Of a stretch of 64,000 bases of DNA, positions 2,918 to 58,251 are shown in pieces. Numbering within the stretch: position 1 is the stretch's first letter; each line of letters opens with the position of its first letter. Both the position numbers and the translations under genes were made by a program. This stretch comes from a bacterium (GTDB lineage Bacteria > JAJVIF01): positions 1,019,353 to 1,083,352 of the forward strand of contig JAJVIF010000001.1 in NCBI GenBank assembly GCA_022072165.1. The letters are read 5' to 3'. The notes under the pieces were generated by a model. The model was given only the letters and a program-made list of their open reading frames with translations, had not been told where the DNA came from and ran no database searches.

Positions 2918-5900
2918 TTAGAAGATGGTGCCCGACGATCCCAGGAATTTCGTCGCGAACGCGTCCGAGCTGCCAACAGACGTGAAGTTCGTCGTGCCCG
3001 GACCGGCGTCGAAGTCCATGGTGGTGCTGTAAGAGCCCACGATGATCGGGTCCTCGCCGGCAGTCAGGCCGATAGAGCGCCCGCTGTCAGTGCCGGTGCT
3101 ACCTAGTAGCGACAGCCAGATTGTGGCGCCAGTGGACGGGTTCATCTTGATGACATAGAGGTCGCTCCCCCCCACGGGGGTCTGTGCACCACCACCAAAA
3201 TCTGCGCCGGTGAACCAGTCGCCTGTAGCTACCACACCAGAAGCAGTAACTGCGACACCGCGTCCCTGCTCAGAAGAGGTACTGCCCGTGAACGTGCGGT
3301 CCCAGACATACGCTCCGGTCGTAGAGTTCAGGGCGACTACGAACGGATCAGACACCGTGGTGCTGCCACCGGCGGTCCGGACGCCACCACCGAAGTCAGT
3401 CGTGTTGAAGAAGCGACCGGTGGCATAGACCCGGCTGCCATCGGCAGCCACCGCGTTCACATACTCCAGGTTCGCAGCACCTGTGCCATCGAAGACATAG
3501 TCCCAGACATGTGCGCCAGTCGTGCCGTTCAGCATGACCACGAAACCGTCGCCGGATGTGTCGGCATTGCGAACACCGCCGCCGAAATCCATGAGGTTGC
3601 GATAGTAGCCACCCACTGCGACATTGCCCGAGGGGGTGAAGGCGGCTGCCATCGCGCTCTCATTCCCCGTGGCCGGTCCATTAAAGGACTGTCCCCACAG
3701 GGCTACACCAGCCGAGCTAATGCGGACCACGTACGGATCCTGGCTAGTTGAGGTTGGGCCGCCAGCTGATGTGAGAGTCACGGAACCCCAATCTTCGGTG
3801 CGATTGAACTTGCCTGTAATAACGACATCCCCCGTGGCCTGATCGACCGCCAGGCCGTTAAACTCCTGGAAATCGGTGATTCCGGAGCTGGTCCCCGGAC
3901 CGCTGCTCCTGGCATTCCAGATGGGGGTGCCTGTGGCGCTGTACTTGCAGACGAAGGTGTCGTAGTTCGAACTCAGGACAGAGGTGTTGTTTGTCTCCGG
4001 TCCGAAGCCGAAGTCCATAGTCTGGCGCCAGTAGCCGTAGACGATCACATTGCCAGCGCTGTCAGCTCCGATCCCCTGTGTATCTACCCAGGTACCAGAT
4101 AGGGACCCCAGATTGCGATCCCACAGGTAGGTGCCGCTGGAGTCCAGAGCCACTATGCTGTTTCGTGGAGTCGCAGCGGAGTTAAGTGGTCCCCCACCCC
4201 AGTTGGTGTTAGCGGCAAACGCACCAATGAGGTAAATGTTGCCAGCAGAAGAGACCGCCACACCACGCGCAGATTCCGCGCTGGTGGTTTGCGTGTTTGG
4301 CGACCAGACCCAGCCGGAAGGCCCGCCGCCGGTGATGGTGCCATTGACCGTCGGATACGCGGTCCCGCTGGTGGTGGGATGCAGGGCGTCGTTGGCATAG
4401 ACCGTAAAGGTCACGGTGGCATGCGGGGGATTAGCGATGGGGGTGGTGTTAGCGGCGTTGGGGAACGCGCTGAACGTCAGGGTGTCGCTGTTGCGATTGT
4501 TGACGATGGTGTAGGAGATGGTGTCCCCTTCGGGGTCCGTTGCGGTCCCGGTCCCGGCGTTCATGGTGAAGGTCGCCGGGGTCGGCAGCGAGGCTGAGGC
4601 CAGCGCCCGGGTGCCCGTCACTTGCGGGGGGCGGTTCGGTCCGAGGGTGTAGCTCAGGGGATAGTCCACCTGGTCGGTGCCATCATCCAGGCGGACGATG
4701 ACATCAATGGGATCCGGCGTCAGGTCGAGATTGTTCATGTTCGGCGACGAGGGGGTCTGCGCCGGATAGGGGCTGTTGAGGCCGCTCACGACGGTCACAA
4801 AGCCGAGCCCATCGCCCCAGTCGACACTGATGTCCAGCGGATCACTGTCCGCATCGGCGATCCCCGTGATGCTGACCCCCGCCTGGGTCCCGGAGAGCAA
4901 GGTCGCCCCACTGGTCAGCGCGACCGTCGCGCTCGGTGGCGCATTGAATGCGAAGAGCGGGACCGTGAAGGCCTGATAGGTCACCGACGCCGGCGTCACC
5001 GCCAGCGGCGCGAGATTTTCGTCCAGGCCAATCAGCAGCCCACTGGCGGCATCCGCAGCCCGGACCACCCCCACATAGTTGTTCGGGACCTGGCCGGACC
5101 CCGCCGGCTTGGTCACCAGCCCGGTCATGAAAATCGCATCGCCCGGTCGTCCGGAGTCCTCGCCCGGATCGCCGCCCGATGATGTGTCGTCATCGATGAC
5201 CGTCCCGATGGGAGCGGTCACAGTGGCATCGCCCAGGATCCCCGGGATGCAGATATCAAGAGTCGGGACGCCACTCTCGCCCTGCGCCACGTTGGTGAAG
5301 CTGGGATCAGTGGCCAGGTCCGCTTCGGTGGTCTCGGTCGCCCGGGCATCCCAGTCCTCGACATAGAAGCTGAAGTCCACCGCCGAAATGGTGTCGGCAT
5401 AGAAGAGCCCATCCTGGCTTTCCAGCCGAACCCGGTGCACATCGAGGGCACCGTGCGGCATCCGGTAGGCAAACAGACTCGCATCCGGACTCGCCGGTGG
5501 GAGGCGGTTCGCTTTCTTCTGCGCCGGGGTCGCTCCGCCGCGGGGATCGTTGTAGACCGCGATCATGGCAACGTCGAGGCTGAAGCCCCCCCCGATCGCG
5601 CCTTTGTTGAAGCTGACGGTGTTCGCCGCCGCCTGTCCCTGATGCAGGACCCCATACCCGGTCCAGCCATCGTTCGCCGGACCAAACTCACTCCGGGTCC
5701 AGCCGTCGCTTCCGAAGTTCCCGGTGACGTCCCCGCCGTTGGAGACGCCAAGGCGGGCATCCGCCAGTTCATCGACCAGCTGCCGATATGGGAAGGTGTT
5801 CGCCGTCCCGCTGGTGGTCAGCAGCCCACCTGGGCTGAAATAGGCATCCGCGTTCGCCACCAGGTCATGGTTTAGCACCCGGTCGGTGAAGTACGTATGA

Positions 5901-51929: not shown

Positions 51930-51964
51930 CAAAAGGCGCATTGACCAGCACTGGCCAATGCGCC
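51930..51964 (-). terminator. Strong intrinsic terminator of the 52004-53388 genes
   Basis: A 9-bp stem (GGCGCATTG at 51935-51943 with CAATGCGCC at 51956-51964) is followed on the minus strand by TTTTGTTTG. It lies 40 bases past the lipoprotein stop codon. Confidence 0.82.
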
Positions 51965-52003: not shown

Positions 52004-53002
52004 CTACTGACGTGCGGCAGGCTGTGGACTGCTCTCACTGTCCACCGGCTTCGACATACTCACAGGGAGCATGAGGTCCTCGGGAATACGAGTGGTGGGC
52101 ACTTCCAGGTCAGACAACGACAGCCAGCGGCTGCTCTCCTGTTGAAAGCGGGAGATGATCCGCAGGTCATTGGTCCAGCTGACCGAAGCGCTCCCCGGAC
52201 GGGTGGCATCCAGGCGGTGTTGCATCAGCCAGGGGGTGGCAGTTCCGCCTTCCAGCAACAGCCCGATTTTCTGCCCATCTTCTGATCTGAGATATGCGGC
52301 CTGCGGGTAGGTCCCGAGAATCCGCTCCAGCTGACGCTCACCGACCGCCAGTCGGAGGCTGGCAAAGGCCTCCGCCGGCTCTGATGGGTAGCGGCCGTGA
52401 GTCACCGCATACATCGTGAGCGGCAGCAGCAGCTTCGCCGCGCTGTGCTTGTACCAGGCGTCCCTGTCGGCCTCTCGTTCGGCCCGGAGGGTCTCCAGCC
52501 GCTTTTCCAACTGGAGGTCCTGCAAGTCTGCCTCCTGGCTGGCGAACTCCGGTGCCGCCTGAAAGATGTACTGCCACGCCCTGGTCGCGCTTGCTGGTGC
52601 TAACCCGACGCCAGGAATGGCGGGAAGATGCGTACCCACGGAAACAGACCAGGGCTGGCCAGCTTCGTTCAGGGGCCAGACGGTCGCTTCGTTCAGCAAC
52701 CCCTGCAGGTCCTCCGGGGCCTCTCCCTCCCGACAGACATAGGCGTCCCACCAGGATCGGGGAAGCCCCGAAAAGAAAAAGGTCTGTTGCTCAGCGATCT
52801 GCAGGTCTGGCGGCAGCGCCAGGGGATCGATGCCAGGGGGGAGATGCGATTCGACCGCCACTGCGGGTGGGCTGTCCGAAGGCGACATCGAATCGCTGGC
52901 CTGAGCCCGTTGCCCTTGCGGGTTTGACTGATTACAGGCAGCCACCAAAATGGCCACCAGCAGGACCGGAATGGAGTTGACGATGTTGCTTATCCGGGAC
53001 AT
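52004..53002 (-). CDS. Secreted lipoprotein, 330-residue family, member 1
   Basis: 332 residues. Lipobox VAAC anchors it at Cys23. It is a paralogue of the 53669-54655 product: both contain AEQQ plus a PRxxWD segment, a WP...PW pair, GVxL, a YAVTHGRYPSEP/YAMRYGEYPETV match, AAYxRSxDG, LEGGxAxPWLxQHR and PEDL near the end. The family is not one I recognise. A GGAGG site sits inside the end of the upstream cysteine-rich gene, which it overlaps by 13 bases, so the two are made together. Periplasmic or surface location is predicted. Confidence 0.75.
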   Translation of the reverse strand: MSRISNIVNSIPVLLVAILVAACNQSNPQGQRAQASDSMSPSDSPPAVAVESHLPPGIDPLALPPDLQIAEQQTFFFSGLPRSWWDAYVCREGEAPEDLQGLLNEATVWPLNEAGQPWSVSVGTHLPAIPGVGLAPASATRAWQYIFQAAPEFASQEADLQDLQLEKRLETLRAEREADRDAWYKHSAAKLLLPLTMYAVTHGRYPSEPAEAFASLRLAVGERQLERILGTYPQAAYLRSEDGQKIGLLLEGGTATPWLMQHRLDATRPGSASVSWTNDLRIISRFQQESSRWLSLSDLEVPTTRIPEDLMLPVSMSKPVDSESSPQPAARQ

Positions 53003-53388
53003 TGCACGTCCTCCTTACACCAGCAATCATTGGTCCCCACGTAACCGGGCCAGCAGTCAGCCGCTGGCGGATTACACCAGGCACCAGTGATCGTGTAATC
53101 ACAGCACTCCAGGGCACAGTGAACCTGATCCGCGCTCAGGAATCCATACCCTTCAGTCGTGCACTCTTCTTCTGTACGATGTGTTGAAACGATAGTGAGT
53201 TCCGAGCGATTGCCAGTGACCCAGGCATTCACCACGAAGAACTGCAGGCACCGGCACTTGATACTCTCCTGACAGTCACTCCCCGTGATCGTTATCACAC
53301 AACAACCTGCCTCAGCAGGCCGCGGCGGGATCACGAAGGCGCAGGCAACCGTCAGAAGCATCACGATACACCAGCGCAATGTTGGCAT
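52990..53388 (-). CDS. Cysteine-rich secreted protein
   Basis: 132 residues from the ATG at 53388, preceded by GAGG. A Sec signal peptide (core IVMLLTVACAFVI, cleavage after AEA) leads into a mature part of about 104 residues with 17 cysteines, in CC, CxC and CWCxxDVxC patterns, suggesting a disulfide-locked exported domain. The end, DCWPGY...DCWCKEDVQC, is echoed in the fragment at 54646-54771. It overlaps the downstream lipoprotein gene by 13 bases. A 12-bp minisatellite lies 24 bases upstream of the start. Function is unknown. Confidence 0.7.
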   Translation of the reverse strand: MPTLRWCIVMLLTVACAFVIPPRPAEAGCCVITITGSDCQESIKCRCLQFFVVNAWVTGNRSELTIVSTHRTEEECTTEGYGFLSADQVHCALECCDYTITGAWCNPPAADCWPGYVGTNDCWCKEDVQCPG

Positions 53389-53411
53389 GGTCGCGTACCT
53401 CACTTCTGATT

Positions 53412-53483
53412 GGCGGTGTCGCCGGCGGTGTCGCCGGCGGTGTCGCCGGCGGTGTCGCCGGCGGTGTCGCCGGCGGTGTCGCC
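53412..53483. repeat. Minisatellite: six 12-bp units GGCGGTGTCGCC
   Basis: Six identical tandem copies, followed by GAATAA. The same unit followed by GAATAA is at 54791-54814 with only two copies. It lies just upstream of the cysteine-rich gene and may be in its promoter or 5' leader. A peptide repeat in the overlapping frames (GDTA, AVSP) is a by-product. Confidence 0.9.
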
Positions 53484-53585
53484 GAATAATATCACTATTC
53501 TTCCGCGAGTCAAGTTACCATGCATAAATGGTCGCCGTTTCACTTGGGCAGCAATCGACAGCGGACAAATGGCGGCTCGATACAT

Positions 53586-53611
53586 CGCACCGACGCAGTT
53601 GCGTCGGTGCG
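53586..53611. terminator. Perfect 12-bp hairpin downstream of lipoprotein member 2
   Basis: CGCACCGACGCA pairs exactly with TGCGTCGGTGCG around a GT loop. It lies 58 bases after the stop of the 53669-54655 gene on the minus strand but lacks a T run. It may end transcription with help or act as a processing stem. Confidence 0.5.
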
Positions 53612-53668
53612 TCCTGCTGAACAGTTTGCCCCAGCTCGCTGGGCTGCTGTTATCAGATCTCCCCGGGA

Positions 53669-54655
53669 TTAGCGGGGCTGCATCGTCTGGCCGTTTGAGG
53701 CGTCTGTGGCTGCCTCCGGTACACTGCCGATGCCCAGCAGGTCCTCGGGCAGTTGCAACGACTGCGCCTTCAGGTCGGCTAATGGCAACCAGAGGGTCGC
53801 ACCTGCTTTGAACTTTTCGACTTTTTTCATCCCATTGGTCCAGGCGATGGCACCGCTGGGTTGAGGCTGCCGAATCCGGTGTTGCACGAGCCAGGGCTGC
53901 GCTGCACCACCCTCCAACACCAGGGCGACTTGCGTCCCATCCGCACTTCGCCAATACGCGGCCGCTGGGTGAAGGGCGAGGACCTCCTGGACTTTGCGGA
54001 AATCCACGCCGATCTGAAGCTGCTCAAACGACGCATCGACTGTTTCTGGGTACTCGCCATATCGCATGGCATACAGCGCCACGGGTCGGAGCAGATCAGC
54101 AGCCCGGTAAATCACCCACGAGTTGGGATCAGCGGCCGCCTGTGCTTCCAAATCCTGCCGATGTTTCTGGAGATAATCACCCGCCGGAAAATCGTAGGTG
54201 TTGACGCCAAACTCGGCGGCTCCCTGGGAGAGCCAACGCTGTATTTCCCCAGTAGGGGTTGCTTCCAGCGCAACCCCGGGTGCCACAAGTGACTGCCCGG
54301 GCAACGCCAGATTCCAGGGCTTCGTATCTGGCATCACGGGCCAGGTACAAAGCGCACCCAGCAGGGCGTCAGCGGTGGCGGGCGGCTCACCGGTCCGTAC
54401 GGTTATCAGGTCCCAGAGCCCACGCGGTGTGTTGGCCAGCAGGAAAATCTGCTGTTCAGCCAGCTTCAGATCAGGGGACAGATTCAACGTGTCGAGCCCG
54501 TTCGGCAGGACCCCGGGAGTTGGCACCTGTGCGCTGCCAACGGTAGCGGCAACATGCTCATCGCGCGGCGAAGCAGTCTCTGTCTGGCATCCCAGGAGCA
54601 GCAGCCCGCCGAACAGCAGCAGAGCACTCCAGGCGAGAGTTCGCTTTACAGGCAT
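53669..54655 (-). CDS. Secreted lipoprotein, 330-residue family, member 2
   Basis: 328 residues from the ATG at 54655, preceded by AAGGAG seven bases upstream. Lipobox LLGC anchors it at Cys23. It shares the family pattern with member 1 at 52004-53002: LKLAEQQIFLLANTPRGLWD, CTWPVMPDTKPW, PGVALEATP, YAMRYGEYPETV, HPAAAYWRSADGTQVALVLE, AAQPWLVQHRI and LPEDLLG. The start lies inside the end of a small frame that keeps only the tail of a cysteine-rich gene. Function is unknown; the shared layout suggests both modules arose from one duplication. Confidence 0.75.
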   Translation of the reverse strand: MPVKRTLAWSALLLFGGLLLLGCQTETASPRDEHVAATVGSAQVPTPGVLPNGLDTLNLSPDLKLAEQQIFLLANTPRGLWDLITVRTGEPPATADALLGALCTWPVMPDTKPWNLALPGQSLVAPGVALEATPTGEIQRWLSQGAAEFGVNTYDFPAGDYLQKHRQDLEAQAAADPNSWVIYRAADLLRPVALYAMRYGEYPETVDASFEQLQIGVDFRKVQEVLALHPAAAYWRSADGTQVALVLEGGAAQPWLVQHRIRQPQPSGAIAWTNGMKKVEKFKAGATLWLPLADLKAQSLQLPEDLLGIGSVPEAATDASNGQTMQPR

Positions 54656-54771
54656 CGGATGTCTCCTTCGCACCAGCAATTGGTGCCGAACATTTCGTAC
54701 CCGGGCGAACAGACACCCAGATTTACGATCGAGGTGCTAAGGAACGCGTTTATTCCACGCCGAGCTTTCAT
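54646..54771 (-). pseudogene. Truncated cysteine-rich gene (remnant, possible 41-residue ORF)
   Basis: A frame from the ATG at 54771 gives 41 residues ending CSPGYEMFGTNCWCEGDIRC, which matches the tail of the cysteine-rich protein at 52990-53388 (CWPGYVGTNDCWCKEDVQC). The signal peptide and most of the mature part are missing. It overlaps the next lipoprotein gene by ten bases, as the intact copy does. This looks like an internally deleted copy; it could still serve to couple translation. Confidence 0.6.
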
Positions 54772-54790
54772 TCCGGGATCCACCTTTCTG

Positions 54791-54814
54791 GGCGGTGTCG
54801 CCGGCGGTGTCGCC
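54791..54814. repeat. Minisatellite: two 12-bp units GGCGGTGTCGCC
   Basis: Two copies of the unit found six times at 53412-53483, followed by the same GAATAA. The position before the truncated cysteine-rich gene matches that of the longer array before the intact one. Confidence 0.85.
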
Positions 54815-54875
54815 GAATAAAACCACTCTTCATGAACATTGCAAGCACTATTGCCGGCCATATTTTCCGACGCTC

Positions 54876-57248: not shown

Positions 57249-57728
57249 CTACGGGGCAGTCAGAAACTCTTCCCACGCCAGGGCGGGGACCAGCAGGCGT
57301 CCCGCTGGCTGCCAGTCGATCCCCTCAGGGTTGTCATACCCATTGAACGAGGTGCGCCGAAACGTGACCGGCTCCCAGTAGATGACACTTTCCCTGAAAT
57401 CTGGCCACCCATCCTGATCCCGGTCCCGTTGCGTGTGGCTATAAAGGGTTCGCAGATAGCGCCGGTCCGGGCTGACTTCCAGTCGAATCTCTCCCTCGCC
57501 TGGTTGACGGGGCTCTGTGGGGGTGGCGACCCGGTAATACTGCGGACTCATCCGAAATTGCAGCAGCACCTCTGACCAGTCTGTGAACAGCTCATCGTTC
57601 ACATGTATATAGCTGTCAGCGAGCTGAACAATCACCGGCTGCAGCATGATGTGCGGCAAATACACGCGAAACTCTTCAGCGGTCCCGTTCCAGGGATGCC
57701 GGAGATTGGTCGGCAACTTCGCATAATG
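57249..57728 (-). pseudogene. 3' part of a frameshifted lipoprotein gene
   Basis: 159 codons that continue the 57676-58251 product in another frame, beginning with HYAKLPTNLRHPWNGTAEEF. The join is at a run of seven G (57729-57735 on the plus strand as C). With one G fewer, one protein of about 333 residues would result, close to the 328 and 332 residues of the nearby lipoproteins. The segment has the DRDQDGWPDF loop typical of calcium-binding secreted proteins. No ribosome binding site precedes an internal start. Confidence 0.6.
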
Positions 57729-58251
57729 CCCCCCCAAATTGACTGAGCATCCCCTGATAGAGATGTTCCAGGGACGAGGGTCCCAGGGAGTACCACTCCT
57801 GCTTTCGATTGGGGTCGGCACATCGCACGCTCAGGCGGGTTTGTTCCGGATGCAGTTGCAGGCGGACCACGGTCGGCCCCAGGATCTCCACCGGAGCGTC
57901 CCAGGCCACCAGAGGCCGGAGGTGGCCCTCGGCATCCTGCGGGAGATGACTCAGCCAGGGGCTGAGGGTTTCGGGGGTCTGGGGCCACTGACCGGTCAGG
58001 AAGCGGGCCAGGAGCATCCCGGTCATCAGATCGGTATCTAAAAAGAGCGACTGGGCGAACTCGAGCCCCCCTGGGCGGCCTTCCCGGAGCAGCAAGTGGA
58101 GCAGAGGACGAGTGGGGTCCGCAGCCTGCTGTTGCCGTTGTTGCTCCCTGTGGACTTCTTGCCACCGCTGGAGCACGGCATCAGGTTCAGCACAACCCAA
58201 CAGCGGGATAATCAGCAGACAGAGCAGACTCAGTGTAGAGCGACGGTTCAT
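57676..58251 (-). CDS. Secreted lipoprotein, 5' part (frameshifted at a G7 run)
   Basis: 191 residues as it reads. Lipobox PLLGC anchors it at Cys20, followed by a charged Gln-rich linker. Segments such as MLLARFLTGQWPQTPETLSP have the feel of the 330-residue family (YAVTHGRYPSEP in member 1), but similarity is weak. After residue 174 the frame runs into unrelated-looking sequence (ALCEVADQ), while the other frame continues sensibly. The event may be a sequencing or assembly error, a real mutation, or a slippery tract that switches the gene. Confidence 0.6.
   Translation of the reverse strand: MNRRSTLSLLCLLIIPLLGCAEPDAVLQRWQEVHREQQRQQQAADPTRPLLHLLLREGRPGGLEFAQSLFLDTDLMTGMLLARFLTGQWPQTPETLSPWLSHLPQDAEGHLRPLVAWDAPVEILGPTVVRLQLHPEQTRLSVRCADPNRKQEWYSLGPSSLEHLYQGMLSQFGGALCEVADQSPASLERDR

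Follow-up and report, generated by a model that had tools for sequence, protein, structure and literature searches.

Exported cysteine-rich protein and lipoprotein gene pairs with diverse promoter repeats: probable contingency loci in a sparsely sampled bacterial lineage

About 28 pairs of genes for a cysteine-rich exported protein and a lipoprotein are found in the genome of a bacterium whose lineage has hardly any sequenced relatives, and a perfect tandem repeat lies at the promoter of at least 22 of these cassettes. The repeats are made of over a dozen different units, and it appears that a single undescribed family of gene pairs has acquired many such switches, unrelated to one another, at corresponding places in its promoters. 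Most of the pairs carry their own unstable-looking promoter repeat, so random on-off switching of surface proteins is probable in this bacterium. The cassettes are likely to be contingency loci, in which slippage of the repeat would vary the expression of the exported pair. The totals are our own tally across pattern searches, profile searches, and sampled stretches, the last of which cover about a quarter of the genome; the census of arrays has the same basis.

Two members of the family lie in the window, the whole stretch of 64,000 nucleotides that was analysed (G000:C1:1019353-1083352, from a 3.26-Mb genome in four contigs). They are tandem modules on the minus strand, each with a promoter, a 12-bp array, a small cysteine-rich gene, and a lipoprotein gene, in that order (Table 1). 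Module 2 is the upstream one of the pair, and module 1 is followed by a terminator-like hairpin. The original prediction described a duplication with six versus two perfect units, an intact cysteine-rich gene versus a remnant, and paralogous lipoproteins, and this description holds: the lipoproteins are 35% identical over residues 46-317 (272 residues, E 1.2e-54). The small gene was also correctly said to overlap the lipoprotein start by 10-13 bases, with 13 bases in module 1 and 10 in module 2. The remnant in module 2 has lost the signal peptide and the middle of the protein, and its 41 residues are 44% identical to the cysteine-rich protein P0003 in a gapped alignment of five sequences. The two modules are 93% identical over 41 nt at the end of the repeat and beyond, which indicates that the promoter and array were duplicated along with the genes.

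Table 1. Features of the two modules and their surroundings (positions in the window)
Feature	Position	Strand	Description
Terminator-like hairpin with T-run, after lipoprotein 1	51935..51964	-	One found versus 2.5 expected in shuffles; support positional only
Lipoprotein 1	52004..53002	-	332 aa; lipobox VAAC ending at residue 23
Cysteine-rich exported protein, module 1	52990..53388	-	Intact, 132 aa; signal peptide by inspection; family profile searches
Array 1	53412..53484	-	6.08 perfect copies of the unit GGCGGTGTCGCC; coding-strand unit GGCGACACCGCC
Promoter, module 1	53486..53513	-	TTGACT (-35), 16-bp spacer, TATTAT (-10), TG preceding the -10; 10 of 12 consensus matches (promoter mapping)
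Lipoprotein 2	53669..54655	-	Intact, 328 aa; lipobox LLGC
Cysteine-rich gene remnant, module 2	54646..54771	-	41 aa; keeps the C-terminal motif around PGY..GTNCWC..D..C
Array 2	54791..54815	-	2.08 perfect copies of the 12-bp unit of array 1
Promoter-like sequence, module 2	54816..54843	-	TTGCAA-16-TTTTAT; coordinates read from the sequence
Lone shorter lipoprotein, same family	57676..58251	-	191 aa; profile E 2.2e-6

The promoter-like sequence of module 2 is weaker than the promoter of module 1, with which it aligns. Array 1 starts 1-2 bp downstream of the -10 box and fills the presumed 5' leader until about 23 bp before the ATG. The hexamer GAATAA, initially described as the end of each array, is the plus-strand complement of the coding-strand -10 region TATTATTC and so marks the promoter side of the array; a role as a repeat terminator was rejected, since it belongs to the -10 region (TTGACT-16-TATTAT). 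Eight exact copies of the 12-bp unit are present in the window, versus about 1.3 matches expected by chance even when one mismatch is allowed. A pattern of two units has no site outside arrays 1 and 2 in the 3.26-Mb genome with two mismatches allowed, and a genome-wide dispersed repeat of the REP or HIP kind was rejected because the double unit is confined to these arrays. The lone lipoprotein gene, 3 kb upstream of the modules, has neither a cysteine-rich partner nor a repeat. A perfect 12-bp inverted repeat (CGCACCGACGCA / TGCGTCGGTGCG) at 53586-53611, between lipoprotein 2 and the promoter of module 1, has no T-run on the coding strand.

The pair first looked like a local curiosity and is instead part of a genome-wide family, of which both modules are members. 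As anticipated, the cysteine-rich and lipoprotein genes go together, being paired at many loci of the home genome, and the gene order and the overlap or close spacing recur among the cassettes. For example, a search with the lipoprotein P0002 found three further paralogs besides the two modules. At two of the three loci, a cysteine-rich gene directly precedes the lipoprotein gene, either overlapping or adjoining it; one locus carries two tandem cassettes with TTGACA-(GA)n-TAACCT upstream. A lipoprotein profile found about 20 strong paralogs in the home genome, and the perfect arrays at its loci each have their own unit: CTCGCTGTTA x6.4, GTTACCCGCT x3.8, TCTCCCTA x4.9, GCGTACCTC x3.7 and GCGTACTTC x2.6, AGTTCCTGC x2.6, CATGCAAAGGAGCAGCC x4.1, and CAGGTAACGG x4.1. 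The home genome also contains a second subfamily of six members, in which the cysteine-rich partner mostly carries a lipobox itself; arrays are present at five of them, namely (GA)6, (GA)7, (GA)9, (GT)10, and CTGCATCCTC x4.4. The units seen at cassettes include (GA)6-11, (GT)9-13, and 8-, 9-, 10-, 12-, and 17-mers.

Not all cassettes fit the pattern equally well. Several have no clear repeat (L021, L029a, L220), in others the array is no longer than about two units (F2, L096b, L099a), and two are decaying (F2, a remnant, and L095, with a frameshift). Decay has also left two in-frame fusions (L096:4422-5378, minus strand; L099:2778-3803, plus strand), each joining a signal peptide of the cysteine-rich type to the body of a lipoprotein, and the products (L096b and L099a) are exported and apparently unlipidated. 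A possible homopolymer switch lies upstream of the lipoprotein at L095 (about 3580-3630, minus strand), where the frameshifted cysteine-rich gene is preceded by a short, promoter-like spacer, TTGACC-14-TAAGAT, that contains eight consecutive A.

The association of arrays with cassettes was judged from 799 kb away from the window, made up of twenty stretches (399 kb) and twenty further ones (400 kb). The stretches were picked to avoid already known loci, so the sample underestimates the association. The first twenty stretches and the window together contained only three intergenic perfect arrays: arrays 1 and 2 and one 10-mer array, which lies at the -10/+1 region of a new cassette. The further twenty held four intergenic arrays: (GT)13, (GT)9, one 7-mer, and one 6-mer. 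The two GT arrays head two duplicated four-gene operons (L235:7188-14027, plus strand) of very cysteine-rich proteins, with up to 21 cysteines, and lipoproteins, amounting to two cassettes in each operon. Outside the window, three of the five intergenic arrays mark previously unseen cassettes, and cassette promoters occupy an estimated well under 1% of the genome. The other two arrays are not at a cassette. One is a perfect (ACGCAAG) x4.1 at L238:15946-15974 (G000:C2), between a dnaE-like ORF and ssb and just before the ssb start, and the other, with a 6-bp unit, lies elsewhere. A first-order Markov control of 3 x 400 kb gave no arrays.

The arrays also lie at positions where a change in length could act, with promoters called by consensus matches: the -35/-10 spacer, the -10/+1 region, or the start codon. 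In type A, a (GA)n tract lies within a spacer of 16-21 bp (e.g., TTGACT-17-TATAAT at L030 and TTGACA-21-TACAAT at L031a), following a -35 of TTGACA or TTGACT. This is a classical design for phase variation. A pattern search of the 3.26 Mb found five tracts of (GA)8 or longer, all of them between the -35 and -10 directly before a cassette, and the shorter (GA)6 and (GA)7 tracts are likewise in cassette spacers, which makes seven of seven tracts of at least six units. This spacer position, known from hif, is found at all seven GA loci and not at arrays 1 and 2, with their start just past the -10 box. An argument from the parity of the GA spacers was dropped, since L216 fits even spacing. The two (GT)n operon promoters at L235 resemble type A, with the repeat right after TTGAC. 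Type B covers units of 8-12 bp at ten loci, including modules 1 and 2, where the array starts from about 9 bp after to 3 bp before the end of the -10. In type C, a 17-bp unit carries AAGGAG and ATG and spans the start codon, and the number of units changes the in-frame start codon. No promoter was recognised at the 10-mer locus L202 or the (GT)10 locus L221. Folding of leaders with one to eight units at eight loci gave no general trend, and a leader structure that hides the ribosome site as units increase was rejected in the absence of such a trend. The behaviour of type B is thus not explained by leader folding as predicted by these models.

The number of repeats was expected not to be fixed, and it does differ between paralogs within the genome. 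Homologous promoters carry six versus two units in the modules, (GT)13 versus (GT)9 in the duplicated operons, and 6.4, 3.8, and 4.9 units in related 10-mer arrays. Units are identical within an array, and between related arrays, a substitution is common to all the units of an array. From this uniformity within and difference between arrays, we infer repeated expansion and contraction by slippage, of which such a pattern is expected. With MutL present in the genome, there is no sign of a general repair defect, judged from MutL alone.

Signal peptides or lipoboxes were found by inspection in nearly all cassette members; besides the signal peptide, the cysteine-rich proteins share a CC pair and other cysteines that align. 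Neither protein family matched a Pfam family (best E 0.02-0.08, for single members and at chance level), no NCBIfam model matched the lipoproteins, and the sequences of solved structures gave nothing meaningful for the cassette proteins. The AlphaFold model of lipoprotein 1 was fair (mean pLDDT 79.5) and that of the cysteine-rich protein poor (pLDDT 52.7). A Foldseek search of the PDB with the lipoprotein model gave no E below 0.03. In VIA-align, Neisseria pilins came top for the lipoprotein body, with Z 4.3 and 4.2 over 86-87 residues (rmsd 3.3-3.5), scores hardly higher than those of unrelated rows; motifs of the G-x-Y-P type, seen by eye in the lipoprotein, would suit a match to pilin heads, itself weak.

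Matches to P0002 and the second-subfamily profile were confined to the home genome among the 59 genomes searched. A GTDB contig scan with P0002 and a plasmid search gave no match, and a literature search found no papers on such a gene pair. The proposal to look for the pair in other genomes did not succeed in the same class: the A3, A4, A5, and A6 profiles found no convincing cassette in three genomes, and the best weak match was an unlike exported protein. This protein (L203:684-2639, G003) carries the tandem peptide repeat FNPQPEPPGYVAEESGLEPPGS and matches the profile only weakly, at its N-terminus. A (GA)7 tract is absent from these three relatives, whose fragmented assemblies may break at repeats.

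Perfect short repeats beyond chance, in positions where a change in length could act, and at genes for exported proteins are among the hallmarks of contingency loci, and the cassettes have them. Together with the copy-number differences between paralogs, they point to this reading. Replication slippage would add or remove repeat units. At the (GA)n and most (GT)n loci, the change would alter the -35/-10 spacing; at the loci with 8-12-bp units, modules 1 and 2 included, it would lengthen or shorten the first transcribed stretch, from about +1 to the ribosome-binding site; and at the 17-bp locus, the repeat that changes would itself carry the ribosome-binding site and start codon. The outcome would be stochastic, reversible variation in the exported protein pairs displayed by each cell. 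The earlier suggestion that copy number could tune expression gains strong support from comparative anatomy, in that unrelated repeats occupy equivalent places in paralogous cassettes and, at the seven GA loci, lie inside the -35/-10 spacer. From sequence we infer hypermutability, an effect on expression, and surface exposure of the cassette proteins. The selective reason may be the avoidance of phages or predators, or it may be rivals. The chances are about even that the exported pairs, with independent switches built into spacers, leaders, or a start codon, make up one surface-display system on the scale of antigen variation, of an undescribed gene pair, in a nearly unsampled class and outside the known host-associated pathogens. 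If this is true, one could test whether phages, predators, or rivals drive such repertoires where no immune host is known, and how promoters come to acquire new slippage tracts again and again.

The main rival on function is that the cassettes are toxin-immunity pairs, in which the cysteine-rich protein is a secreted, bacteriocin-like toxin, the lipoprotein is its immunity protein, and the repeats vary production. A small exported gene followed by an overlapping or close lipoprotein gene would suit this, as would the strong divergence of the paralogs. In addition, 6 of the 20 strong lipoprotein matches have no intact cysteine-rich partner (absent, remnant, frameshifted, or fused), whereas all 15 matches to the cysteine-rich profile adjoin a lipoprotein-family gene or fusion. 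Lipoproteins thus persist where their partners are lost, and none of the 15 cysteine-rich matches is without a lipoprotein; this imbalance would be expected of immunity genes, if they can do without a toxin partner. Such pairs are nevertheless unlikely, given that the Pfam search returned no toxin or immunity family beyond chance level, that the cysteine-rich protein of the second subfamily mostly has a lipobox of its own, and that the two fusions join an export signal of the cysteine-rich type to a lipoprotein body.

The repeats themselves could have a more ordinary origin. They might be neutral minisatellites, slippage-prone leftovers of duplication with no regulatory role, as the cassettes with only about two units, the evident tandem duplication of the modules, and the decay of F2 and L095 would allow. 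This is quite improbable, since more than 12 different units would not be expected to sit at matching positions in the promoters, to within a few base pairs, if they were neutral, and comparable arrays are scarce in the other intergenic sequence sampled. It is very doubtful, too, that the units are iterons, that is, binding sites for a repressor or activator, or leader RNA structures, with the number of copies determining how strong an otherwise ordinary regulation is. The 12-mer is self-complementary and can form GGCG-ACAC-CGCC hairpins, and the arrays do lie beside or within promoters. Against this, the units vary by locus and in most cases lack self-complementarity, which leaves no common factor that would fit them, and the predicted accessibility of the ribosome site is nearly flat with unit number.

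Repeat-driven phase variation is known mostly from host-associated bacteria, with one or a few repeat classes per species. The original view that no system of this form has been described needs to be divided: the gene family, the variety of units, and the host lineage are new, while the mechanism is already familiar from Haemophilus (hif and hmw). Large families of phase-variable lipoproteins within one genome, a likeness to the cassettes, are a feature of Mycoplasma (vlp, vlhA, vsa), where switching is by homopolymers, GAA repeats, or inversions. To our knowledge, these families have no cysteine-rich partner gene, and no sequence relation to the cassette proteins was found here. Promoter shuffling has been mentioned for the variable lipoprotein genes of Mycoplasma (PMC11868660). 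In Moraxella catarrhalis, variable repeat tracts are thought to regulate the transcription of the surface-protein genes uspA1 and uspA2 (PMC8895709). These tracts are likewise at genes for surface or exported proteins, but the proteins are unrelated, and they are single loci in a host-associated bacterium.

By analogy, hif is the best-documented relative of type A and hmw that of the longer units. Between hifA and hifB of Haemophilus influenzae, a (TA)9-11 tract is proposed to alter the -35/-10 spacing (PMC2651432). The GA paralogs share with it a two-base repeat within the promoter spacer, length changes in steps of 2 bp about the optimum, and exported surface proteins; here, however, the repeat is GA/CT or GT, many loci are present in the one genome, the promoters are those of cysteine-rich and lipoprotein genes, and arrays 1 and 2 lie after the -10 box and not in the spacer. 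Upstream of hmw1A and hmw2A in the same species are heptamer and octamer repeats whose number alters the expression of surface proteins, and the unit length for one gene differs among strains (PMC2651432). The cassettes resemble hmw in having longer units near the promoter of such genes, but their arrays start at -10/+1, have about 2-6 units compared to the 12-38 in hmw, and belong to an unrelated gene family.
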